A stretch of 64,000 nucleotides of DNA from Selaginella tamariscina (Eukaryota; Streptophyta; Lycopodiopsida; Selaginellales; Selaginellaceae), in contig PUQB01000074.1 of NCBI GenBank assembly GCA_003024785.1, forward strand, positions 62,001 through 126,000. The letters run 5' to 3'. This document shows, piece by piece, positions 16,090 to 64,000 of the stretch (the stretch's first letter is position 1; each line of letters opens with the position of its first letter). The translations under genes were made by a program, and so were the position numbers. The notes under the pieces are model-generated. The model made no database searches. It was not told the DNA's origin and saw only the letters and a program-made list of their open reading frames with translations.

Positions 16090-17261
16090 TTAGGGTTCTC
16101 TGGTAAATGGGCTCGGATCTGGAGGAACATTAGGAGAAGGCATGGTGGATATGTAGGCGGCACAACTTGCACAAAACGCTTCAACCGTTGCACATGTACA
16201 ATCTCCGGAGGGTTGTTGAATGTCGTGCTTAACCTCATAAACTTGCGGCCCACTTGCCGTAGCACTCGATACGGTCCTTTCCACTGAAAGGAGACTCTTA
16301 ACTAAACCACGTACCGTAAGCTTGGGAAAAACAAACCAACACCAGTTCATCAACCTTGTACTCCGCAGGAGGACGATGATGCGAGTTGTAGCGTTGTTGT
16401 TGTCCTACTTGTACGCGGCCAAGTGTTCTACTGACTCCACGAACCAATGGAAGAATGCTCGTCAGATACCGATCCCACGACCTAGCATCAGCAGCTCGTG
16501 GTAACCAAAGGCAAACCCAACTCCGTTGGCAACACCGGGTCATGACCATACAAAGCTTATATGGGGAAGTACCAATGGAACTTTGAACTCCAGTGACATA
16601 AGCATATCGAGAGACGGCAGATAACCATCCCAATCTGAATGTTGAAAGTTCACATACTTTGCGATCATCCCTTGAAGGTTCTGACAGCCGTTCCACTAAA
16701 CCATCTGTCTGAGGATGATAAGCACTTGTGAAAGTGTGGCGTATCCCTAATCGAGATCAAAACATGAAATGCCTCAGCCATAAATGCGGACCATTATCCG
16801 AGAGAATTCGCTCCGGACAAGAATGCTGAAACACGACCCGATTCAAGGAGAAACTGACCAACAGCAGAAGCAGTCGCACTAGCAAGAGCACCAACTTCTA
16901 CCCAACGAGTTAGGTAATCAGAAGCAATAATAACGTACTCGTTACCAGCAGTTGACCGCGGAAAAGGTCCCATCAAATCAAATGCCACCAATTCAAACGG
17001 ACGAGAAACTGCAATTGACTCCAACCGTCCTTCCGAAGCACATGGGGGAGTATTGCGAGCTTGGCACCACACACAGCTACGCACATACCGAATCACATCT
17101 CCTCGCAACTCCGGCCAATAGAAAGATCTCGCAGCTTCTCCATCACCGACGATGTCCCATGTGCCCGCCAAGAATAGGAGAGTCATGGTAAGCATGGAGG
17201 AAGCGTGGAATGAAGATTGAAGGCACCACCAACCGCAAAGGATCATTGGATCAGTCCCCAC
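16090..17261 (-). pseudogene. Ty3/gypsy integrase region (broken frames)
   Basis: Integrates element cDNA. The zinc-binding part is read as FYWPELRGDV then VRSCVWCQ. The catalytic core has Asp in AFDLMGPFP, and the glutamate region reads YHPQTDGLVER near 16,690-16,720. A C-terminal part contains KVDELVLV, WKGPYRVL and EIVHVQRLKRFV, typical of the integrase tail. Frame changes between 16,300 and 16,800 split it into several pieces. No chromodomain follows. Confidence 0.85.
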
Positions 17262-19082
17262 AAAATAAAGAAGGTCATCCTGAACGATACTTGCGAATGT
17301 AAATGCCTGAAAGGCAAGTCATCAGCAAGTGATGCAGGATTCTCAAACCCATCACGAAGCCTTCGAATCCACGGCTCAACCTTTTGAGCTTCCCGAACCT
17401 CATCCAAAGACGGCAAATCTAACTCTGCATTCTGCGGACACTGAACGTCAAGCACAGCAACTGCTGATGGTACGGAATCTTCATCCAAAAAGTCCACTGA
17501 AGCTGGAACAACTGGTTCCTCTGGGGCAACAGAAGAGAGAGAAGGTGGAAGAGGAGCCCGAGAAAGAGCATCAGCATCAGCCATGGAACTCCCTGGACGA
17601 TGAACAACTTCAAAGTCGTAAATTTGAAGTTTCAAGGCCCACCGAGCAGTACGCCCAATCAAATTCTTCCGCTTCAACAACGAAGTGACTGCTGCATGAT
17701 CGCCTTCCAACAACGTCCGCGAACCATGCAAGTAGGCATGGAGCTTCTCAAAACCCCAAACTGCTGCTAGACACTCCTTTTCAGTGTGGAGTAATTCACC
17801 TCTGCTGGCTGCAATGTACGGCTGATGTACGCAATGGGATGTCGTTGGCCAGGAACACTTGTACTCTCCTGCATCAATACCCCCCGAGGCCGATGTCAGA
17901 AGCATCTACACGCAAGATGAAAGGACGGGTGTAATCCGGGTACGCCAAAACTGGAGGAGTCGTCAACAACTCTTTGAGATCTGCAAATGCCTGCTTGCAA
18001 TCCTTAGACCAAACAAAAGAAGTCATTGACGATTTCAACAACGCGCGCAACGGTGCAGTACGATCTGAAAGATGATCCACAAAACGACCCAGATATTGTA
18101 CCTTGCCAAGAAAGCGTTGCACATCATTCACACACTTTGGCGTAGGGAACTTCAAAACTGCAACTAGTTTGTCAGGATCGACTTGCAAACCTTCACGTGA
18201 AATGCGATAACCCAGATAAGTGGTGTCCTTTGATCCAAACACACACTTAGATGGCTTCAACTTCAAACCAACTTCCCGCAGCCGATCCAAAACCTTACGT
18301 ACATCACCGACATGCTCCTCCCACGTTCCATCCGAATGGATCAAAACATCATCGATGAAATCGGCAGTCACCTCCGGCATGTCGCAAAGAACCTCGTCCA
18401 TCATACGTTGGAAAGTTGCTGGAGCATTGCTCAAACCGAAAGGCATCACCAGGAACTCGTACAGGCCAAATGGTGTCCGAAAAGCAGTCTTGGGAATGTC
18501 CATGTCAGCCATCGGAACTTGCCAATATCCAGATGCGAGATCTAACTTGGTGAACCAACGGCTCCGCCCCAGTCGATCCAAAAGGTCTGCAGTATGAGGA
18601 AGTGGGTACACATCTGAGACGGTTACCTCATTTAACGGGCGATAGTCAATGCAGAATCGAACGCTCCCATCAGGCTTCGTCACAAGGTGAGGTTCGCACG
18701 CCCAAGGACTTCGAGACTTCCGGATAACACCCTTCTCCAACATCTCTTTGACATTCGCTCGTAAGATCTTGAGCTCCTTTGGTGACCGACGCCGAACAGG
18801 TACCTTGATTGGCCTAGCTTCTCCAGTTGGAATAGGGTGGCGTGTCGCAATCTTGGCCCCAGATGACAAGTCGAAGTTGAAAAGATCAGCATACTCCTTC
18901 TTGAGTTGATCAACAACTACAGCACGACGATCATCTGATGGATCCAAAGAAGGAAAGGAAGAGCATGAAGGGAAAATGGTTGGAAATAGGGGTGAGACAA
19001 AAGTGATGGAAGCAGAGGTGGAAGCAGATGGACGAAGTGGAATAGAAGTAAGAGGAATGGAAGAAAGACGAGGGAGAGTCAA
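17243..19082 (-). pseudogene. Ty3/gypsy reverse transcriptase and RNase H
   Basis: RT spans about 17,874-19,082: RSPWACEPHLVTKPDGS, FCIDYRPLNEVT, FTKLDLASGYWQ and the active site FIDDVLIHSD (the family usually has YIDD), then KCVFG and YLGYRIS. RNase H begins with FILRVDASDIGLGG and continues in another frame with HTEKECLAAVWGFEKLHAYLHG, then IYDFEVVHRPGSSMADADALSR. The frame break lies near 17,880. The catalytic Asp, Glu and Asp residues are present in the two pieces. Confidence 0.93.
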
Positions 19083-19368
19083 ACAAGGGGGAGACTTTCA
19101 AAGTCACACTTGGCATGATTGCGAGTTAACCAATCCATACCAAGAATAAGGTGAAAAGCTTGACTCGGCACCACCCGCAAAGATTGAAGCTCGAGCTCAC
19201 AATCATCCACACGAACAACAATGTCCACTTCATCCGCGAACAAGCATGAGTATGTCCGTTGCCGTACAGAATGAAGACTGGTTCTACCGCACGACGCAAA
19301 TGAAGGCTGCAACGTGTAGCAACAGATTGAGAAACAGAGGACAAACTTGAACCTGTATCCACCAACAC
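19079..19368 (-). pseudogene. Ty3/gypsy aspartic protease
   Basis: A retropepsin-like domain starting near LVDTGSSLSSVS, with the catalytic Asp in DTGSS (about 19,350-19,363), then HLILGMDWL. The reading frame shifts once near 19,255. It sits between gag and RT as expected. Confidence 0.85.
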
Positions 19369-19559
19369 TGAAAGGAAAACAGGACGTGGTGTGCGATTAA
19401 AACGAGCTTGAAAAGTGAAAACCGGATGATTTGGTGTAAGTGATACTCCCGAAAGAAAGATGGAGGGGTCACTAATTTATTCGCACGAGGACCCTCCTCT
19501 ACTCGTGCGATTCGTCGTTTCCCGGAAGATCCACGCATCACAACCTTCCACTGCAGCAG

Positions 19560-20432
19560 CACCAACCGGACGTTGTTGACGCCATGGCCTCCATCCTGGA
19601 AATGGGGGACGCCAATCGGGAAACCGTTGACAGCGCCGATACGTGTGTCCAACCTCATCACATGCCCAACAACGAACTGCACGTCCACGTCCTCGTCCAC
19701 GGGCCCACCTTGTGCTGGTACACGAGCGGCAACAGCCTCAACCTCCATCGGAGCAGGTCCATCCCCAACATGGAGTGGAACAAGAGCACGTGAAGGCGCA
19801 AGTGGGAGAGGTGACGACTCATATCGTTGTGCCAGCCTCAAAGCATCGTCAAGAGTCACTGGAGCTAGTGCATGCACAAGCCCCACAAGGTCTTGACGAA
19901 GTGCTGGCCACAACATACCTAACTTGATGCGTTCCGACATGTTAGGTTCTGCACGCAGCAAAAGGCTTCGAAAGCGAACACCAAACTGCATCACCGACTC
20001 AGATGGCTCCTGACGAATACGATGCAACTGCTGAAAAGCATCATCACAGTCGTCCGCATGCCCAAATGCACGTTTGAAGATCTCTGGAAGAATATTCCAA
20101 TCTCCACGAGTTGCAACGTCCAGACCATTGTACCACTGCAACGCCGTCCCTTGAAGACAAGTAGGAAACTCGCGCAAACACTGAGCACCGTCCCACGAAT
20201 GATATGTGGCAACCACAATGAAGTGGTCAAACCAATGGTACACATCATCTCCAGGATTTCCGCGAAAGAAATCCGGTCGGACACGGGGGTTTGCAACATG
20301 AGTAGGAGGAGTACCCTGGACTGTGAATGCTGCCATCAACTGAGAATGATTGTTCAGTTGCACACGCATGGCATCCAACAATTGCATGAGTAACTGCTCC
20401 ACAGACAAGGGATTTGCCTGTTGTGGATTCAT
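19560..20432 (-). pseudogene. Ty3/gypsy gag with CCHC zinc knuckle
   Basis: Starts at the ATG at 20,432 (MNPQQANPL). The capsid-like region includes WFDHFIVVA, LQGTALQWYNGL and SVMQFGVRFRSLL, typical of plant gag. The knuckle CWACDEVGHTYRRC (C-X2-C-X4-H-X4-C, about 19,631-19,673) is in a different frame from the N-terminal part, so at least one indel splits the protein. It packages element RNA. Confidence 0.88.
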
Positions 20433-20544
20433 GGACGAAGAAGAGACAAAATCCAAAGAAAGAATAATCTAACAATGGAAAAGCTAGACCTAAGAAGACA
20501 AGAAAAAAGACACAAATCCGAGCACTCCGTAGGGACAATTAGAG

Positions 20545-34327: not shown

Positions 34328-36103
34328 TATTTATTATTAATTTCAACCTTATATATATGTGTGTAAATATTATATTTAAAGTCTGTGGCTAAAAATGTAC
34401 AGGGCAAATCGGATATGCTCTGGTGCCAATGATTGCAAGGGGTGTGATGCTCGGTCCAGATCAGCCCGTTATCCTCCACATGCTGGATATTCCTCCTGCT
34501 GCTGAGGCTCTCAATGGTGTGAAAATGGAGCTTATTGATGCGGCTTTTCCCTTGCTTAAAGGTAAACTAGCTTTATTAGTACTAATCTCACTATTATATA
34601 TGTATGAGGTGTCTCTGGTGTATATATGTACATCTATCATATACATATCGTTTATACATCTTAATATAGTGCATTGTAAATAATACATTGATGACTACAC
34701 AGGAGTTGTTGCAACCACTGATGTGAAGGAGGCATGCAAAGATGTGAATGTTGCTGTGATGGTCGGAGGATTCCCTAGAAAAGAAGGGATGGAACGCAAG
34801 GATGTAATGTCCAAGAATGTATCTATTTACAAGTCTCAAGCTTCTGCTCTTGAGGAGTGTGCTGCTAAGGACGTCAAGGTATTATACTTTATATAAGATA
34901 ATGTGTATAAGTTCGCACACGCACACGCACACGCACACACAATAGTATTGAGCAATAAAATATGATTTCTGAACGACTGTTTGTCAGGTTCTGGTGGTTG
35001 CAAATCCTGCAAATACAAATGCTTTGATTCTGAAAGAGTTTGCTCCTTCGATTCCTGAGAAGAACATCACGTGTCTAACAAGGCTGGACCACAACAGGGT
35101 ACTGTATCATATATTATATAATATAATATGCTATCAACCTGTAACGCACATTGTACTAAATACTTTAGAAGTATAGTAGTATGATACCTATAATGTTTTA
35201 ATACTTACGTTATATCAAATGACGTATTTGATATAACAGGCTCTGGGTCAAGTTGCGGAGCGTACCGGTGTTCAAGTCTCTGACGTGAAGAATGTGATAA
35301 TTTGGGGAAACCACTCATCAACCCAGTACCCGGATGTTAACCATGCTGTGATTGTTACCGAGAAAGGAGAGAAACCCGTCCGTGAAGTGGTTAACGACGA
35401 TGAATGGTAGCGTGTGTGCACAATATCCATATATATTAAGTAATATATCATTACTAATTACTGTATTTAGGCTGAATGGAGCATTTATCACCACTGTTCA
35501 GCAACGTGGTGCGGCCATTATCAAGGCAAGGAAGCTCTCTAGTGCACTATCTGCAGCAAGTTCTGCATGCGATCACATTCGTGACTGGGTTCTTGGAACT
35601 CCAAAGGTGTGTGTGTATGTGTGTGTGAGAGAGAGAGAGAGAAAGAGAGACAGAGGATGGGAGGCAGGGAGTCACGTTATATGCATATTCACCACTATAA
35701 CTATGTAGGGAACATGGGTGTCAATGGGAGTGCTTTCTGACGGTTCATATAACGTTCCTAAAGGAGTCATTTACTCTTTCCCTGTCACTTGCTCTGGTGG
35801 AAAATGGTCGATTGTCCAAGGTACGCATAACTTTGAGTAAACTTTAAACTTTATGCCTCTGTGTGTGTGTGTGGGTGTGTTTAAGGGTGTGTGTATATTA
35901 TATATATACACATACATGTCTGTGTATCCAACCCTATGAATATGTACCTCATATCAAACTCTCGTGTTGGTTCTATATATATATGTTATTAATGTTTATG
36001 CTAATTAATAGGTTTACCGATTGATGAGCTGTCGAGAGCCAAGCTGGATGCGACTGCGAATGAGCTCGTTGAAGAGAAAGAGATGGCATATTCGTGCTTG
36101 TAA
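33829..36103 (+). CDS. MDH: Cytosolic NAD-dependent malate dehydrogenase
   Basis: Interconverts malate and oxaloacetate with NAD(H) in the cytosol. Eight exons join in frame: 33,829-33,871; 34,403-34,561; 34,703-34,878; 34,988-35,098; 35,240-35,406; 35,471-35,606; 35,709-35,820; 36,012-36,103. They give 331 residues, the usual length, all with GT-AG introns. The nucleotide-binding motif is VTGAAGQIGYAL, the mobile-loop arginines are in [13 protein letters not shown], the catalytic Asp/Arg region is TRLDHNRA, and the catalytic His is in [13 protein letters not shown]. There is no transit peptide, hence cytosolic. The protein ends EMAYSCL. This is the only large gene in the window with a fully open frame. 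A truncated copy of exons 5-8 lies at 43,602-44,359. Confidence 0.97.
34254..34325. repeat. TA microsatellite in MDH intron 1
   Basis: About 70 bp of alternating TA with one AATA interruption, preceded by a CA run. Self-complementary. Confidence 0.9.
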
Positions 36104-43601: not shown

Positions 43602-43889
43602 ACCACTCGTCAACCCAGTACCCGGATGTTAACCATGCTGTGATTGTTACCGAGAAAGGAGAGAAACCCGTCCGTGAAGTGGTTAACGACGATGAATGGT
43701 AGCGTGTGTGCACAATATCCATATATATTAAGTAATATATCATTACTAATTACTGTATTTAAATGGAGCATTTATCACCACTGTTCAGCAACGTGGTGCG
43801 GCCATTATCAAGGCAAGGAAGCTCTCTAGTGCACTATCTGCAGCAAGTTCTGCATGCGATCACATTCGTGACTGGGTTCTTGAAACTCC

Positions 43890-43944
<55 letters not shown>

Positions 43945-44359
43945 GATGGGAGGTCACGTTATATGTATATTCACCACTATAACTATGTAGGGAACATGGG
44001 TGTCAATGGGAGTGCTTTTGACGGTTCATATAACGTTCCTAAAGGAGTCATTTACTCTTTCCCTGTCACTTGCTCTGGTGGAAAATGGTCGATTGTCCAA
44101 GGTACATATGCGTGTGTGTATATATACATGTATGCATAACTTTGAGTAAAATTTAAACTTTATGCCGCTCTGTGTGTGTGTGTGTGTGTAGGGTGTGTAT
44201 ATATTATATATATACACATACATGTATGTGTATCCAACCCTATGTGTGAGTAGCCAATATGTACCTCATATCAAACTCTCGTGTTGGTTCTATATATTTT
44301 ATTGATGTTTATGCTAATTAATAGGTTTACCGATTGATGAGCTGTCGAGAGCCAAGCTA
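43602..44359 (+). pseudogene. Truncated MDH copy (exons 5-8, with introns)
   Basis: Almost the same as MDH positions 35,314 to 36,047, including the introns, so it arose by DNA duplication and not by retrotransposition. It starts inside exon 5 ([10 protein letters not shown] region) at a junction around the short shared word GTGATAAT. It keeps exon 6 ([11 protein letters not shown]) and exon 7 ([15 protein letters not shown], with one base lost near 44,019). It breaks off inside exon 8 after the codons for DELSRAKL. No start, no NAD-binding half and no C-terminus, so no enzyme. Confidence 0.95.
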
Positions 44360-56010: not shown

Positions 56011-58597
56011 CACATATCTCTTATGCATCCATAATATATGTATTATGGAGGTGATATAGATGGGTTCTCACACTGCAGACGCACACTTATGAGTTCTTCA
56101 GCCAAACAGAAAGTCATGGCTTCAGTGTGTGTGTGGCTGTGTGTTAGATGTGTTAAAAAGCATTTTATGTGGCATTTTTAAATGAGATGTGAATGTGAAA
56201 AATAAATAATAAACACACTGATTTCGTGATCAAAAGTTTTATTGCAAAGTTCTTTGTTGTAACCGCGATAATAAAATCAATCAAATCAAAAGATTTATTT
56301 CCTTGTTCATCAGCATTTCTTGTTCTACTGGTGCTCAATAACAAGGTCTTTGTTCTCGTATGAAAATGAAATGTATAGATCAATTCAAGAGAAACATTTG
56401 CGATGTAGCCTGGATGTATATGTTTGGAAATTCACGGTATTCATTGTTGTCCTAGAGTATTTCAATGTTAATTAAATGATATATTCTCATGTACTAATCA
56501 AATATTCTTAAATATATTGATAGTTTTTAACCATATGCCACATAAAAAATTTAGAAAAAAATATTTAAAACAGTGGTACATTGCAATACTTCCAATATCA
56601 ATTTTAAAGTCCATTTTGAGTGCATTAATTATATTTATTACGAATTTTTAATTTATGTAACCTCCAACTTATATCATTCCCAACTGTTCTCTGGTTCTCA
56701 GACTAAATAAGTAAATTAATAAATTAATTTTAAAAATTAAAAAATGTTTAATGTAAGGCAGTAATAGTAATAAATAATTTATAACTTGTACGTTAAGATA
56801 AGATAAGATAAAATAAGAATTATTTTTTTAACGTTTTCATTTTTATTAACATTAATGATAGTGTGAAAAATAAACTGGAAAGTGAATTCTTTCTACATTT
56901 TATCCCACATTATATAATGCTCAAGTATTTTTAAATATGTAAATATCCTAGCATAGAAAACATATACAAGCAATACACACACACACACACACACACACAC
57001 ACCACAACATATATATATATATATATATTCAATGAAATACATATACAAATCTTTATATCTATCAGAGTATGATATAGAATAATTATAAATGAACAGTTTT
57101 TATTAATAATCTAGATAACGTCGGATGATAGAATCATTAATTCTTATTTAATGTTTTTCATTGTGTATAAACATATAAAACATTAATAACTAATAATGAT
57201 ACCAGATAGATAAATAGGTATACTACTTCCACACATAACAATACGCAGGCATTTATTATTTGCATGCAGTACCAGGTTTAAAACAGTAGGAAGTGCCGGC
57301 TAATAAAAAGTTAATTTGGAAAATTTCAGTTTATTTAATATTACTTGAAATTTACTAATCAAATAAGAGAATATACTTTGAATATATCAACAATTCAATA
57401 CTGATTCCTCAACTTCCAGGTATAATTAAAAATTACTTATAATATATATTATTTATTGTACATTATATATTTTATAACGAAAAAATTATTATTGAACAAA
57501 TTGTTACTGACTTAAACAAGTATGAATTTTAAAGGTAAGATCAAAGTTTCAATATTCATAATTTGAAGATTGGCATAATTAATATTCAAAATAAATGTGT
57601 TGTAAGATTTATAAGTTACAAAGTAAATAAATAAATTTATTAAAGAATGAGTTATTAATATAAAAATAAATGTTATTAATGAATGTTTTCAAACATATAC
57701 TTACAAGTGATATTAAATGATTGGTATTTTTTTAAAAAGAATTTCCAATGTATATAGTGATATCTAAATTGTTTAGTGTGCTTATTTTATAAGAAAAAAA
57801 AAGGGAGTGATAATGTGTAAACACAAATCCATTGTAAAGTTTAAATAGAAAAAATGTATATATGCTTAAGATGTATAACAATGCTAAACATGTAATTTCT
57901 TATCTTTATATAACACTTTTAAAAAAAATGAACTTAAAATAAGATTAACAAAAGTTATAATGGGGTTTTATTGAGTTGTCATTTTTCTTATCCAATACAT
58001 AAGTCATCACAGTACATGTACATAGGTACACAAGTATCTTAGAGAGTGTTTAAGTTGAGTTTAAATTGTTTTTAATCAAAATAGTTAATGAATTTACAAC
58101 CATCAATGTTACAAAAATTATAATTATTTTTGTAAGATATTTGAATGAGAATAATATATAAAAATTATGATTATTTTTGTGAAATTTGAATAAGAATGAT
58201 GTAGTAAATGTATTTGGTAGCATTGTAAAGGTTGATATTACATATGCCTTTAATATTATAAATGTTATTTTAACATGGATTGATAAATCTAACTTAAATG
58301 TAAATTGCTGGATGGCATTTGGATTTGATGGTGTTTATTTTTATAAAACTATGTGAATGATGTTGTTACAAGGTTACACTTGTTTAATTTATTCATGACT
58401 AGTCTTTATTGTATAGCACACCATTATATTCAAGATGCATATAAGAGTGACAATTGTAAAGTTATTTTGAAGAAGTGAATAATATAGTTAATAAAGTTTT
58501 AAATTTTTCTATTAAAGTGTAAATAAACAAGATGTTTAAAGTACGAAGAAGTATGAGTGAAAGGAATATTAATAATAAGTTAACGCAATGTAATTGG
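56011..58597. other. AT-rich intergenic DNA
   Basis: No gene recognised. It contains a CA then TA microsatellite at 56,976-57,028 and many A/T runs. The composition changes sharply near 58,600 where the next cassette begins. Confidence 0.5.
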
Positions 58598-58800
58598 AGT
58601 GCCGCCATTTTGGAGGCTTAGGGCTAGGAGGCCTGGGCTTGAATATTCTAGAATATTTTAGATATTCTTTTGGTCGGCAGTATTGGCCTCAGTCGGCAAA
58701 AAAGAATTCTAGTAAAACTTTTGTATTTCTATCTTATTCTTTTTTATATTAGCTTAATTTATTACTCAATATACATCATAGCTAAAGTTTCTTCTTCATC

Positions 58801-60164
58801 TTAAGTAAAAGCTGCAGTTCTCGAACCACTAGCTAGGCTAGGACGTGGAGGTGTTTGAGTAGGTAATTCCTCGGATCTAATGTTCTCTGCGAGCTTGTTG
58901 TTTGCCAACCTAGAGAGTTCGAAACTCTTCTCGGTTCCTATAAATATTCCTTCCGAGCTCGACGGCAGCTAACAATGATGATCCGGTTCCGGAACCAATA
59001 TCCCAGACTAGGTCGCCAGGTCTACTGAGACGCTCGATCAAAAGCTGCATGAGTCGAACACTCTTCGGTTGAATCATCATCCTGCACAAACTTCCATTAG
59101 GATAAACAAAGCAAAGTACTTCCTTACCAAGCCTCCTGAAAACGGCGGTGTCGACGAGGATCGTGTTCGTCAACGCCAGAGGGTTTGGCCTCTTCGACTT
59201 CTTCTCAGAGCTTTGCAGCACCAAGAGAACTAACAAGTTATCCTGCCACATAGACCAAGTTAAACTTGAACTTGAATAGCTAGCTTACCTTAATTTTGTC
59301 ACGGTATCCCCAGCCTCGTGCACGGTAGACGCTGTAAGTCCCTGCAACCTCCAAGTTGATTACTGCAGCCGCCTGAATCACCCCGAACAGAAGGAGAACT
59401 CGCGAAGACGACCATGAAACCACTCGCTGCCAAGTGCATTCCACTGAACTGCAAGGCCTCCTCAAACTTCACCGGATCTAGCTGCACAATGTCCTTGTTG
59501 ATGCTAGCACCTCCATATACAAGCTCATTGGGCAAGTCGAGGATGATGAGGTTGAAGCCGTATTCACCTACCACTTCCTGGAACACCGTTTGTGACTCAG
59601 CCGTATGTAGTCTGTCAACCTGTTGTCGGAGCTTGGTGTACACCTCTGTCTGGGAAGCACCCGGCTCGAAGAAAGACCTGCTCATCTCCTCCATATCGCA
59701 CACAGCCAGGTCGTAGGATCCACGGGATGCAGCCAGGGTCGGGATGAAGGTCATCAGGTCGTCCTTGATGTCCAAACCAGCTACAAGTGGCTGCACCTCA
59801 TTGATTGTAAAGTCGATTGCCGGCGGAGGTGCTGTAGAAGAGCTTGGTCCCGCTCCCGATCCCTTTGCAGGTGTAGTTGTCTTCCGCACCGTCTTCTTCA
59901 TCTTGCTCTTCTTGATAGCCTCTACTTCGTCGGCTCCCAAACAATCGCTGGTAGATCATTGCCATGCACGTCGAATAGTGAGCTCTCCCAAGCTGGTGGC
60001 TGTTGCGACGGACAGTCGAGCCAGAATGGAACATGCTCCCGTTCGAACGGTGTTAGAGCTCCTCTGCTCTTCGACCACATGTGAGGCTCGCTTGTATGAT
60101 CTGTCCACAGCTTCATCGTCTGAGACGGTGCCATTTTCTTCGCCAGTATGAACCTGTAACACAA
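58801..60164 (-). pseudogene. Amino-type (N4/N6) DNA methyltransferase domain region
   Basis: C-terminal part of the cassette gene. A Lys-rich linker (KKSKMKKTVRKTT, GPSSSTAPPP; about 59,820-59,940) is followed by a Rossmann-type half: SYDLAVCDMEEM, then FNLIILDLPNELVYGG (about 59,515-59,560), where DLPN stands in the place of catalytic motif IV (D/N-P-P-Y/W), then ASGFMVVFASS. After an intron (about 59,235-59,286) come LMQLLIERLSRPGDLVWDIGSGTGSSLLAA (positions 58,960-59,050), the S-adenosylmethionine motif I with its lead-in, and in a shifted frame GIFIGTEKSFELSRL, ending at TAA 58,801. Motif IV before motif I is the beta-class order of bacterial and phage enzymes. Frameshifts occur near 58,945, 59,390 and 59,940. 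Substrate and activity are unknown; the variant motif IV may mean reduced or no catalysis. Confidence 0.6.
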
Positions 60165-61075
60165 AGTCAGACAGTAGCAATGCTGGAATGAAAGCTTACC
60201 TCCATATCATCCGACAGACTCCTCACGCTCCAGAAACTCATTCGGCTCCATCGAATAAGTGAACCGTATGCAGTCATGGAAGGGCTGAAAGACCAGGCAC
60301 TTGCTCCGAGTTCGCATCTCGTCAAACCAGCTCATGAAGTCGATATCCGTTCCAACTTCTTCACCATCCTCTCGCAACCCCTTAAGGATCTGAATGGCTT
60401 CCTCACAGCCTTCCAATATAAGTCCAAGGTGAACCACTTGATCCACTCTTTGTCCTGCATGCCTGGTAGCCCAAGTGTCTGTTGTTCTGCCTTGGATTCG
60501 AGACGAGTGAGCTTGTTCAAGTATCGGAGTCGCAGCATGTTTGAAATCTTCGCCTTTGACATCGTACAGCTTCTCAATGCCCATCCAGCGACACTGCTTA
60601 TGAGAGATGTTCGTCACCTTCTGGAACCACTCCTCCCCCAAGTCTGGGTCTATGATGGAGAGGAACTTGTGCATACGCTTGTCATGCTTCTTGTACACTA
60701 GCTGCTTCAGGTTAGCTCAAGCTGTGGATTGCCCTTAGCACTGGTGACTGCTCTGTCGAGATCATCGTCGATCTCGTTCTGCACATAGAATAAGTTAAAA
60801 ACTTCTTTCCTATCAATCAAATCGGAGGTTACCTTGAAAAGGATCTTTGCGCAGATCAGGTTTGGAAGAGGATGCCAAGCCGTCTTTCCTGTTGAACTCT
60901 CCTTCCACTTCCGCACCTCAAGACGATCAACCTCCGTGAGTGACTCGAGGATTTTCTGAGTTCCTTCGGTACTAGTGCAGACCGCCTTTACAGCGAGGAG
61001 AATATGTGGTAGCGTTGTTTCCACAGATGTTGCTGAAGATCTGTTCAATGAAACTGTAAGTCTAGACCTTAACAA
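60165..61075 (-). pseudogene. Middle region of the cassette gene, unknown fold
   Basis: Several exons in a run (60,207-60,698 and 60,707-61,075, with short introns such as about 60,155-60,200) link the ParB-like part to the methyltransferase part. Text includes ILLAVKAVCTSTEGTQ, EVRKWKESSTGKTAWHP, FLSIIDPDLGEEWFQKV and IDFMSWFDEMRTRSKCLVFQPFHDC. It is rich in charged and aromatic residues, compatible with a folded domain, but I do not recognise it. Splice sites (GTAAGC, TTACAG) look eukaryotic, so this is not bacterial contamination. Confidence 0.5.
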
Positions 61076-61084
61076 AAGAAAAGA

Positions 61085-61983
61085 AAATACTCACATGTTT
61101 ATCGATTGGAACATCGAAACCAGTTGAAGATTGTCGAGGTTCTCCGTGGAGATGAAACTCGATCGAACGTGAATAGCCCATCGCTGGTTGTCCTCTGCAT
61201 CCTCCCGGTAGAGCTTCTGCAAAGCCTGTAGCCTATGGTTCCCGTCAGCAGCTGAACTTCCGGTTTGAGAGCCTTGAAGCCCACTGTTTGTACTCCTTGA
61301 GTAAGAGCTTGCTCGAAAGACCGGTGCTGCTCGTACTGAACCGTGTCCTTCGACAGCTCCGATAGCTCCTCAGCAGTGAGTCGATCTCCGATGGACAGAA
61401 TGAACAAGGCCGTGTTGCGTAGATAACCAGCCTTCTTCAACGATGACACCAGCTGTCCAAGTCCCCTGGGTTCACTCGTCGAACCACCTCGTTCGAATGC
61501 ATTCTACAGATGGGCACATCAGGAGGATCACCAAGTCCCTTGACAGTAATTTTGTCGAGCAGGTTCGCTGAGCTCTCCAAATGCAGGCTAGCCGGTATGC
61601 TGTATAACTCCTTCGGCTCCTTATCGCTCTTCGCCTTCTTGCCTTTTGGATCAGCTTTCCCGCGGCTCTCTTTTTGCTGACTGCCTCCTCCAAGTCGTCC
61701 TCGCTAGCTTCAACTGCCTCTGTCATCTGCACTTGCTCGTTCAGGACTGCAACCTCAGCGGATGAAGGAGGCAACTGCGACGAGCTCTCCGGGAAATCTG
61801 TGATGGTTGATGGAGGCTGCTCCTGCTCAACTGGTACTACTTCAGACTGAGTCACTGGAGGATCCTCCTTTGCTACATTAGATGGTTCTCCTCTCTTTCC
61901 TCGCTTGTGCTTCGATATCCTCTTCTCTTCCCGTGGCTCTTCATCAGGCGCAGTCTCTAGTAGACGTTTTGAAGCTCTCACCA
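61085..61983 (-). pseudogene. ParB/sulfiredoxin-like domain with acidic-basic N-terminal tail
   Basis: Start at 61,983 (MVRASKRLLETAPDEEPREE). The first 120 or so residues are low-complexity, with a basic patch (SKHKRGKRG) and acidic stretches, suggesting a nuclear, DNA-associated protein. A one-base shift near 61,650 leads into KELYSIPASLHLES, then VPICRMHSNEVVRRVNPGDL, LVSSLKKAGYLRNTALFIL, and after VQLLTG a frame shift near 61,237 into HRLQALQKLYREDAED, then TENLDNLQLVSMFQSIN. This layout (entry strand, L..L..S....G......, G-x-H-R-L-x-A, then an N-rich helix) matches ParB/Srx domains (compare G-H-R-R-L-x-A). In ParB this domain binds CTP; in other members it is nuclease-like. The residue assignment is by eye. 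Confidence 0.5.
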
Positions 61984-62088
61984 TTTTGTAAACTCTGGAA
62001 AGCAAACACACAAGTCAATTGATTAGGAGACAAAATAAAATAAAAATCAAAGATGACTAACCTTGTGGCTGCCGACTCAAGCTAGATG

Positions 62089-62820
62089 GTGCCGACCCTC
62101 TCAGTCGGCACAGAGATGTAGAAGAAATCCTGCCGACTGAGATAGTTGGTGCCGACCCTCTCAGACGGCACTGAAGAGATAATGGTGCCGACTGAGCTAG
62201 GATGGTGCCGTCCCTCTCAGACGGCACAAATGGGAAGACCCATTAACTCTGAAAAAAGAAATACTTGAGCCGCAAAGCAAAAAATAAACAAATTCAAAAT
62301 ACCTTGTGGTTGCCGACTGAACCAGGATGGTGCCGTCACTCTCAGTCGGCACAAATGGGAAGACCCTTTATCTCTGGGATTCCGACACAAATGGGAACAC
62401 ATTAACTCTGAAAAAAAAAACATTGTGATAGGATACTTGAGCCGCAAAGAAAAAATAAACAAATCGAAAATACCTTGTGGCTGCCGACTGAACCAGGATG
62501 GTGCCGTCACTCTCAGTCGGCACAAATGGGAAGACCCTTTATCTCTGGGATTCGACACAAATGGGAAGACACATTAACTCTGAAAAAAAAAACATTGTGA
62601 TACGGATACTTGAGCCGCAAAGAAAAAAATAAACAAATTGAAAATACCTTGTGGCTGCCGACTGAACCAGGATGGTGCCGTCGCTCTCAGTCGGCACAAA
62701 TGGGAAGACCCTTTATCTCTGAAAAATAAATTATTTGAGCCGCAAATCATAAAATAAAGAAATTGCACATACCTTGTGGCCCCGACTGAGCAGGATGGTG
62801 CCGACAATCTAAATCGGCAC
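62089..62820. repeat. Array of seven 23-bp palindromes upstream of the cassette gene
   Basis: Each unit is an 8-base arm, a 7-base spacer (usually CCTCTCA or ACTCTCA) and the complementary arm. Positions: 62,089-62,111 (GTGCCGAC/GTCGGCAC, perfect), 62,149-62,171 (GTGCCGAC/GACGGCAC), 62,205-62,227 (GTGCCGTC/GACGGCAC, perfect again by paired change), 62,330-62,352, 62,501-62,523, 62,675-62,697 (all GTGCCGTC/GTCGGCAC) and 62,798-62,820 (GTGCCGAC/ATCGGCAC). From 62,290 on they lie in larger tandem units of about 120-175 bp that also contain CTTGTGG, TGCCGACTGA and AATGGGAAGACC. They may be protein-binding sites or form hairpins. The overlapping minus-strand ORFs (62,217-62,807) are repeat translations. 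Confidence 0.9.
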
Positions 62821-62830
62821 AGAAATCTCG

Positions 62831-63188
62831 ATTGATTTACTTGGGCGCACGAATCGACTCGAAATGGATGGCGCCGCTCCTCTCAAGCCCCTTGGAGGAG
62901 ATTTCAGAACTCAGATCTGAGATTGAAAAAACCCTAGCCGCAAGTCCTATCTACCAAAAAACCCTAAACAGTGAACCCTACGGAATAAATGTGACATTAA
63001 TATTTAGGGTTAATATTAAAATATGTGAATAATTGGTAAAGGTGAAGATATTTCAAATCATAAAAGGTAGTAATTAAATTAAATCGGTGATACTAGAGGA
63101 CAGCATTAAGAACACTGTGAGCTGGGCAGCGTAGAATTAATTATATACAAAAGTGTATTCACTTTATTATCAACGATTATAATTTTTT
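62831..63188. other. Right flank of the cassette
   Basis: A G+C-balanced patch (62,860-62,960) with a short frame MDGAAPLKPLGGDF, then several AACCCTA-like words (62,928-63,010), then AT-rich DNA. The minus-strand promoter of the cassette gene may lie here or in the palindrome array. No gene called. Confidence 0.4.
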
Positions 63189-63900
63189 TTGGCGAACGAG
63201 AGTGTGTTTAATCTTTTGCTTTGCTTTCCTAAACCACCGAGCTTTCTCCTTGCGTTGTCATGGCCAGAGTTACCTATGAATGAAGCATTGACAAAGATTT
63301 CCCAATCGATGAAGATGGAAATGCTTTTGTGTTTGAACATGATCTTCACTTTGCTTTCAACATTCCTTGTTGGTTCAGTATACATGTGTTCAATTGATGT
63401 CAGTTTCTGCGAGTTCTGGAGAGATGTGGAGTTGTTACCAGAAGGCAATGCATCAAACCAGTTTGTCTTTTTACACATTGTGCCCGGCAAAGGGCCCGTT
63501 GTTCAGGTTGCGGACAAAGGAGCGTGAGGAATCCATGCTGGTGTGTCTTCTAAGAGCAGACAAATGTAGATAGGGAAGGATCTCATTGGTTCGTCTGAAG
63601 TTAAACGAGTCTCTGAACTACGCAGATATACAATGGAAATGTCATTTACGAACTTCCCCCAAAGAAAGAAAGCACAGAGAAGTACTTGGGGATGAATCGC
63701 AAGGATGGCTGCTACCATTGGACACACCCGAGCACAACACACTGGCATGTTCCGGCGAGTCAGTCGAAGTTCATGTGTCGGACATCTCAAATGCATCAAT
63801 CCTACCTGCCCCTACTTGGCTTTTGAGAAAAAAGCAAATGAATGTCACTTCAAGGGTGCTGTGGAGAAGGCAAAGACAACTGAGACAGGCAAAGAATAGG
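63189..63900 (+). CDS. Possible gene fragment with Cys/His-rich stretch
   Basis: Plus-strand frames at 63,189-63,527 (112 residues) and 63,705-63,899 (64 residues) have non-repetitive composition. The second includes SSCVGHLKCINPTCPYLAFE then NECHFKGAV, in which Cys and His spacing (C-x4-C-x4-C, later C-x-H) could bind zinc. It resembles zinc-binding N-terminal parts of plant transposon proteins, but I cannot name a family. The intervening sequence (63,528-63,704) has no continuous frame, so there are introns or decay. Overlapping minus-strand ORFs at 63,170-63,490 and 63,503-63,799 are alternative readings. Confidence 0.3.
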
Positions 63901-64000
63901 CATGAAATGTAAGCATTGTGGAGAGGAGCATTTAGTGCACACTGTCCGGCAAAGTAATAGGCATGAAATGTAAGCATTGTGGAGAGGACCATTACTAGTG
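63895..64000 (+). repeat. 61-bp direct repeat at right edge containing a CxxC motif
   Basis: The words AATAGGCATGAAATG and TAAGCATTGTGGAGAGGA start at 63,895 and again at 63,956. One frame reads MKCKHCGEEH, a C-x2-C-x3-H pattern like a zinc knuckle, and the second unit repeats it in another frame because 61 is not a multiple of three. The unit continues past the window. Confidence 0.7.

Follow-up and report, generated by a model that had tools for sequence, protein, structure and literature searches.

A methyltransferase-like accessory gene in a probable Mutator-like transposon of Selaginella tamariscina and a candidate binding site for its protein

The gene, its transposon and its copies

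We analysed a stretch of 64,000 nucleotides (nt) of the Selaginella tamariscina genome (assembly GCA_003024785.1, contig PUQB01000074.1, positions 62,001 to 126,000 of the forward strand), called the window below, with positions counted from its first letter. Close to its right end lies an intron-bearing gene on the minus strand (61984-58782), which is the accessory gene of a two-gene DNA transposon. This transposon is probably Mutator-like and makes 9-bp target duplications; the genome contains many copies of it, which fall into at least two families. An earlier note, made from the letters of the window alone, had placed an intron-bearing gene on one strand at 58801-61983. The gene was found there, and the span matches its coding part, while the mobile unit proved larger (58597 to 66641, in coordinates extended past the window end).

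Modelled on intact copies described below, the window gene has six exons separated by introns of 46-54 nt with GT..AG borders. The number of exons is the same in family B, a second family beside that of the window copy (family A), and its introns measure 52-60 nt. Exon 1 (61095-61984) contains the start codon at 61984, a charged N-terminal region and then a ParB-like region (about 61523-61095) with a conserved DGNHR box, the ParB assignment being not significant. Exon 2 (60833-61040) was modelled with other copies as guide, and exon 3 (60200-60778) holds a conserved region without a significant Pfam or PHROG match, to which no family was assigned. The N-terminal half of the methyltransferase-like domain is in exon 4 (59289-60153), with a motif IV that reads DLPN at 59538-59527. 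Exon 5 (59128-59242) was matched to exon 5 of family B, and exon 6 (58782-59081) carries motif X, the S-adenosylmethionine (SAM)-binding motif I (DIGSGTGS, 59002-58982) and the stop codon, read at 58784-58782 as in the intact copies. All exons are on the minus strand. The protein has Lys/Arg-rich parts, in line with the basic, Lys-rich part described earlier, and the window copy of the gene is interrupted by about ten or more frame changes.

The extent of the transposon was established by comparing 20 copies of 10 kb, the window copy among them, from the searched genome (300.7 Mb, 1,391 contigs). The main alignments of the 19 other copies to the window copy were mostly 91-97% identical. Similarity ended within 10 nt of 58597 on the left in 15 of the 19 and within 20 nt of 66641 on the right in 12 of the 19. 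Because these edges converge, the element measures 8,045 nt here, with 58597-64000 inside the window and about 2.6 kb beyond its end. The left end is preceded by the 9-bp target-site duplication ATGTAATTG (58588-58596), a perfect direct repeat whose right copy stands just outside the right end of the element, beyond the window. Ten copies had both ends mapped; the 9-bp flanking repeats were perfect in five of them and matched at 8 or more of 9 positions in seven when compared straight. The control, in which the left flank of one copy was compared straight with the right flank of another, gave at most 7/9 (n = 90). Allowing a 1-nt slip raised the number with at least 8/9 to nine of ten, the control covering the straight comparison only. 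Candidate terminal inverted repeats are imperfect (GAGTGCCGCC..GGAGGCTTGGG versus GGGTCTCGGC..GGAGGCTCCGG). The mobile-element setting proposed in the earlier note is thus borne out by sharp ends, target duplications and many copies. Pieces of further elements adjoin some fetched copies (L025 9553-9989, L031 9248-9999, L026 142-444), which suggests clustered insertion.

An endogenous fragment of a large DNA virus was considered in place of a transposon, as the enzyme is prokaryote- or phage-like and stands in a plant genome, and virus-derived regions are reported in lycophytes and mosses. The sharp ends, the two genes and the many copies speak against it, pattern scans of IMG/VR with the methyltransferase and ParB-like parts found no relatives, and the 9-bp target duplications in particular make a viral origin most improbable.

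The second gene is transposase-like and divergent from the first. Its 5′ part occupies 63258-64000 on the plus strand, and it continues past the window end. In the family B locus L047, it consists of long open exons with a SWIM zinc finger at the end (19.6 bits, at the cut-off of 19.6), whereas the same finger scores 15.9 bits against this cut-off in family A. Motifs read by eye (DHT(H/Y), SDE.GAIW, C..H and TTNN.EV) are like those of Mutator transposases, and the transposases of families A and B are 70.9% identical over 412 amino acids. The MULE profile found no match in the second gene of either family. A 9-bp target duplication is characteristic of Mutator-like elements, and membership of the Mutator superfamily is likely from these features, not proven.

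Family B was discovered at the locus L033, next to one of the copies. L033 is a divergent element that carries the gene too (34-65% identity over tblastn pieces, frame breaks included). The proteins of the two families are 60% identical in the ParB-like region and 57% in the methyltransferase region. Both families are numerous, all copy numbers being lower bounds. The methyltransferase exon as query gave 1,390 candidates in the genome, of which 150 were scored, all at least 75% identical. Family B exon 4 gave 1,105 candidates, of which 150 were scored, nearly all 98% identical; family B is abundant and young. The PF01555 (N6_N4_Mtase) profile was above its cut-off in all 150 places scored among 739 candidates. 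Three further PF01555 places, taken up as possible divergent families, turned out to be family A or B again.

The real test, according to the earlier note, would be intact relatives elsewhere in the genome, and two such copies were found. Aligned over 8,143 nt, the near-complete family B copies L046 and L047 differ by 11 mismatches and 17 gap openings, and they encode identical proteins of 1,015 residues (0 differences) without a stop or frameshift. L046 is flanked by a perfect 9-bp duplication; L047 has no perfect 9-mer flanking repeat, its flanks differing by apparently one G. The ParB-like and methyltransferase-like parts form one gene in both families, not two unrelated ones.

These copies bear on the frameshifts reported in the earlier note. 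The frame changes in the window copy are real features of the assembled sequence, while the intact copies and indel-rich differences make many of them look like assembly errors. L036, compared with ten other family B loci, differs by 127 mismatches and 157 gap openings, summed over main alignments and leaving out L040, which aligned in two pieces (32 mismatches, 15 gap openings). Because indels outnumber substitutions between such near-identical copies, assembly errors are suspected, and they, not real decay, probably explain much of the broken frame of the window copy. In family A, single-base indels are frequent, yet fewer than substitutions in most copies. Of the 389 singleton changes in this family, 260 are C>T or G>A, and the set as a whole is near neutral, as 123 are synonymous (29.7% expected) and 27 make stops (3.5% expected); among shared changes, 54 of 141 are synonymous. 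The codon-position counts of these changes and of the indels rest on an early gene model.

A methyltransferase homologue with an altered motif IV

By sequence comparison, the C-terminal half of the protein is homologous to bacterial beta-class amino-methyltransferases. The Pfam N6_N4_Mtase profile has a cut-off of 26.7 bits. The window's own piece falls just short of it (26.3 bits), and higher scores came from an X-joined model of the window copy (32.7 bits), from an exon of L022 in unaltered form (38.4 bits, E 1.8e-9) and from the spliced protein of L046 (36.4 bits). The N4/N6-type, prokaryote-type homology claimed earlier holds above the cut-off in all but the first. The match spans positions 165-220 only of the 221 in the profile. 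As a single pair, the Curtobacterium plasmid enzyme WP_111232402.1 is 27% identical over 193 positions (BLASTP E 2e-16), and it was matched in the plasmid collection by tblastn at 2e-7. A phrog_67 protein of Caudoviricetes sp. vir524 gave a BLASTP value of 3e-10, also as a single pair, and the X-joined window model matched phrog_67 at 3.1e-9. A CCDC90-like match of this model (3.4e-4) vanished on the correct frames and was set aside as a coil artefact.

Both families share the order DLPN ... QPKS.RLMQL.IERL.RPGDL.WDIGSGTGSS.LAA.ELGRN, in which motif X and the SAM-binding motif I are intact and lie C-terminal to motif IV. The consensus of motif IV in beta-class amino-methyltransferases is (D/N/S)PP(Y/F/W). 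Here it is DLPN in all 34 loci readable by pattern (38 examined; they come from two families and are not independent, and L033 and L034 overlap), and L049, which the pattern did not catch, reads DLPN as well. Between families A and B, the proportion of nonsynonymous differences (pN) is 0.305 and that of synonymous differences (pS) 0.879 (saturated) over 660 codons, one 200-codon piece of less than 40% identity (pN 0.381, pS 0.817) being left out. Since pN is well below pS, the protein has been constrained between the families, with DLPN retained.

The earlier note implied a working methylase. Such an N4-cytosine or N6-adenine methyltransferase would place a mark of prokaryote type on the element that encodes it, which is what has been proposed for the algal relatives; it would share self-site binding with the explanation that we prefer below and differ from it in activity. 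Motif X and the SAM-binding motif show good conservation. Setting the plant DLPNGT opposite the Curtobacterium DPPYGV, which was done by eye (MAFFT puts the gap elsewhere, and the BLASTP alignment begins after the motif), leaves motif IV with its Asp and second Pro. In addition, the available text of PMC12477816 proposes that proteins of this kind attach to the transposon that encodes them and modify it epigenetically. The uniform DLPN, with the first Pro and the aromatic residue gone in both families, speaks against methylation, as the conserved SAM site and the idea of self-modification speak for it, and we consider a working methylase rather unlikely. With DLPN in place of (D/N/S)PP(Y/F/W) at motif IV, a SAM-binding, DNA-reading protein seems somewhat more likely than a fast methylase.

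The N-terminal part was harder to place. Both families share the pattern VPICR..N..VRRVNP.DL..L..S.KKA.GYLRNT..FIL ... KF.CWDGNHRL..LQKLY, whose likeness to ParB was judged by eye. Weak ParB-type matches to ddrB-ParB (E 0.1, window piece), DndB (0.028) and DUF1015 (0.05) were gone on the correct frames; the last two were discarded because the X-joined model ran through a wrong frame between QALTQ and DGNHR. Ten shuffles gave two chance matches, neither of ParB type. In its correct frame, exon 1 of L019 and L020 had no ParB-type Pfam match up to E 5, and two exon-1 sequences together with the L046 protein had none up to E 10. The correct frame of exon 1 also had no ParB-type match in PHROGs or in PDB sequences, each up to E 10. 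The ParB/sulfiredoxin-like domain named in the earlier note is therefore left without a significant match in Pfam, PHROGs or PDB. Its remark that the ParB-methyltransferase pairing is phage-typical fared better, as the accessible part of PMC12704722 describes phage proteins in which a ParB-CTPase fold is fused to an N6_N4 methyltransferase. Our own phage and plasmid tblastn matches cover the methyltransferase half only (among the best 20 of 167, 10 of 381 and 12 of 449). Pfam searches of three phage proteins from the first of these sets, up to E 0.01, showed no ParB domain. One scan of prokaryote genomes with the ParB-like part found no relatives.

An array of composite sites and a proposed role for the protein

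Between the two genes lies a non-coding leader array (62060-62840) with 12 TGCCGACTGA sites (at most one mismatch), in facing pairs about 31 nt apart and set in repeated GT..AG exon-intron-like units of 171-174 nt. Left subterminal half-sites (GTCGGCAG... and TCAGTCGGCA) are found at 58673-58698. Across the window, 12 of the 13 matches to CTCAGTCGGCA (one mismatch allowed) fall inside the element, 0.27 being expected for the window. The longer leader (62060-62960) is made of repeated units (CACAAG/GTATTTT ... TTTCAG/AG) that resemble a tandemly duplicated 5′ untranslated exon plus sites.

Nine full family A copies have 6-13 TGCCGACTGA sites (one mismatch) in the leader array and the rest within 300 nt of the ends, with none elsewhere in the element. 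Each end has zero to two, the left-end site being absent in L031 and L032 and the right-end site in L017 and L031. In the family B copy L046 (9-nt core, one mismatch), 26 of 29 sites are in the array between the genes, one is in an exon and two are near the ends; counted over 10 nt, it has 24 sites, against a mean of 0.45 and a maximum of 3 in 40 Markov-1 sequences. The build of the arrays differs between the families, with exon-intron-like units of 171-174 nt in A and 40-nt units with abutted palindromes in B. Common to both are the TGCCGACTG half-site and the spacing of facing pairs. For pairs less than 200 nt apart, this spacing is 31-32 nt in 85 of 93 cases in family A and 30-31 nt in 4 of 5 in L033, which is about three turns of DNA. 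Exact TGCCGACTG-N20..23-CAGTCGGCA sites number 2,245 genome-wide, counted regardless of whether they lie in such an element, and the reversed control gave 0. The composite site looks like a dimer site that apparently persisted as the surrounding array was rebuilt.

Mutator-like elements are able to capture genes (Pack-MULEs), and the broken frame of the window copy would suit a captured passenger without function for the element. Against this stand the retention of the gene, its exon layout and the sites in two families that are 57-60% identical in two aligned protein regions, a pN well below pS and an identical intact protein in two young copies, which make a passenger very unlikely.

A serious rival is that the TGCCGACTG sites are read by the transposase or by a host factor, with the methyltransferase-like protein in another role, for example as a transposition cofactor. 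In its favour, sites are found close to the ends in addition to those in the array, and the transposase has been conserved together with the gene. With zero to two sites at each end, compared with 6-13 in the family A leader array and 26 in that of L046, the distribution is more in keeping with a regulatory array than with end recognition, and we hold this alternative to be possible, if somewhat doubtful.

The best explanation, to which we assign a probability of roughly 0.5, is that the protein is an accessory factor that binds sites in its own element and keeps it active. Once in the nucleus, the 1,015-amino-acid protein would bind to facing pairs of TGCCGACTG half-sites, probably in dimeric form, both between the two genes, where the control region lies, and near the ends. 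Occupied sites would keep the control region expressed and the element competent for transposition despite host silencing, and the protein possibly uses SAM to mark DNA at the sites. This role is proposed by analogy with VANC of the Arabidopsis VANDAL elements, which are Mutator-like; to our knowledge VANC is not a methyltransferase homologue, and the factor proposed here would stem from a methyltransferase ancestor.

A fuller version of this explanation is offered tentatively. A methyltransferase-derived protein of bacterial origin, with its active site rebuilt and serving as an epigenetic writer or reader, may recognise a 40-bp composite site in which two 9-bp half-sites face each other at a distance of three helical turns. 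Recognition of such sites, arrayed in the bidirectional control region of its own element, would override host silencing. The match between site and protein would have been kept while the array was rebuilt between the families, and the system would have driven the expansion to very many copies.

The decay of methylatable bases bears on this proposal in both directions. Decayed CpGs make up 27 of 1,115 in the array versus 415 of 8,514 in the genes (Fisher p 1e-4, sites and copies not being independent), a rate about half as high, which a less methylated array would predict. Several other observations weigh against activation through self-sites. CpGs at the element ends decay fast (23 of 229), and cytosines in the CHH context are not protected in the array (37 of 3,944, versus 249 of 32,647 in the genes), so protection of the array is partial at best and could have repeat homogenisation as an alternative cause. 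The family A copies examined are also truly decaying despite the gene. ParB homology of the N-terminal part is not significant by profile, and motif IV lacks its first Pro and aromatic residue in both families. Lastly, because the transposase is co-inherited between families A and B at the identity given above, the sites could belong to it.

The element has a further subterminal feature, a heat-shock-element-like sequence (GAATATTCTAGAA, 58641-58653, plus strand). In all ten full family A copies scanned, GAAnnTTCnnGAA or TTCnnGAAnnTTC occurs close to at least one end (for example L013 8766) and nowhere else inside the element, such a sequence being found in a fraction of 0.0016 of shuffled L013 ends. 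L033 has no perfect one. Judging from these sequences, the element may be heat- or stress-inducible.

Elsewhere in the window, a Ty3/gypsy-type retrotransposon polyprotein, named by eye from its translation, occupies 16301-20468 on the minus strand in several frames, with frame changes like those of the methyltransferase-like gene. A malate-dehydrogenase-like gene, also named by eye, lies at 34393-35705 and 43750-44136; one exon recurs almost unchanged, likely through local duplication. The tRNA and Rfam scans of the whole 64-kb window were empty.

Comparison with known systems

The bacterial plasmid and phage beta-class methyltransferases (Curtobacterium WP_111232402.1 and the vir524 phrog_67 protein) can be aligned with the plant protein over its C-terminal half. 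Those examined have no comparable N-terminal part, and their motif IV reads DPPY (Curtobacterium) or DPAY (vir524) where the plant protein has DLPN.

Bacterial-type amino-methyltransferases also occur in other eukaryotes, namely the bdelloid rotifer N4CMT and the Marchantia 4mC methyltransferase (PMC8885841). In the available part of that source these are host enzymes, the first with a chromodomain and the second without extra domains, and they are not described there as transposon-borne. DNA methyltransferase domains are likewise carried by DIRS retrotransposons with Dam-like adenine methyltransferases and by retrotransposons with cytosine DNA methyltransferases (PMC5890265). Those elements are retrotransposons with other enzyme types, and the accessible text of that source mentions no site arrays.

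The likeness to VANC lies in a transposon-encoded protein and short motifs in tandem repeats of the element's own non-coding parts, repeats that are gained and lost while the motifs are retained, as far as the available text of PMC5735166 describes them. For VANC-type anti-silencing, the likeness is limited to this design of the site array.

The kind of gene itself is already known, as ParB-methyltransferase accessory genes are reported in algal transposons in the available part of PMC12477816, which describes one with a ParB-like part and an N4/N6 methyltransferase in the Ectocarpus transposon Sola1-1_Ec32. Likened by description only, the plant gene matches these algal accessory genes in its position on the strand opposite to the transposase and in its methyltransferase homology, and the ParB part is not significant.

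Transposons that bring their own DNA-modifying enzymes could supply plants with new epigenetic marks and anti-silencing tools. A likely binding site is now at hand, together with young copies that are intact and two matched families, so that the role of ParB-methyltransferase accessory proteins becomes testable. DLPN also raises the question of whether a protein with a methyltransferase fold has become a DNA reader.

Compared by its description in the available part of PMC12477816, the Ectocarpus transposon is of type Sola1, whereas the plant element has a 9-bp target duplication, is probably Mutator-like and sits in a plant nuclear genome, and its protein has a ParB-like part undetectable by profile and a motif IV that reads DLPN. 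The open-access literature searched, as far as its text was available, held no report of such an accessory gene in vascular plants or in Mutator-like elements. Within that literature, what is new here is the setting in a plant nuclear genome and a 9-bp-duplication element, the composite site and its conservation, the intact recent copies and the altered motif IV.

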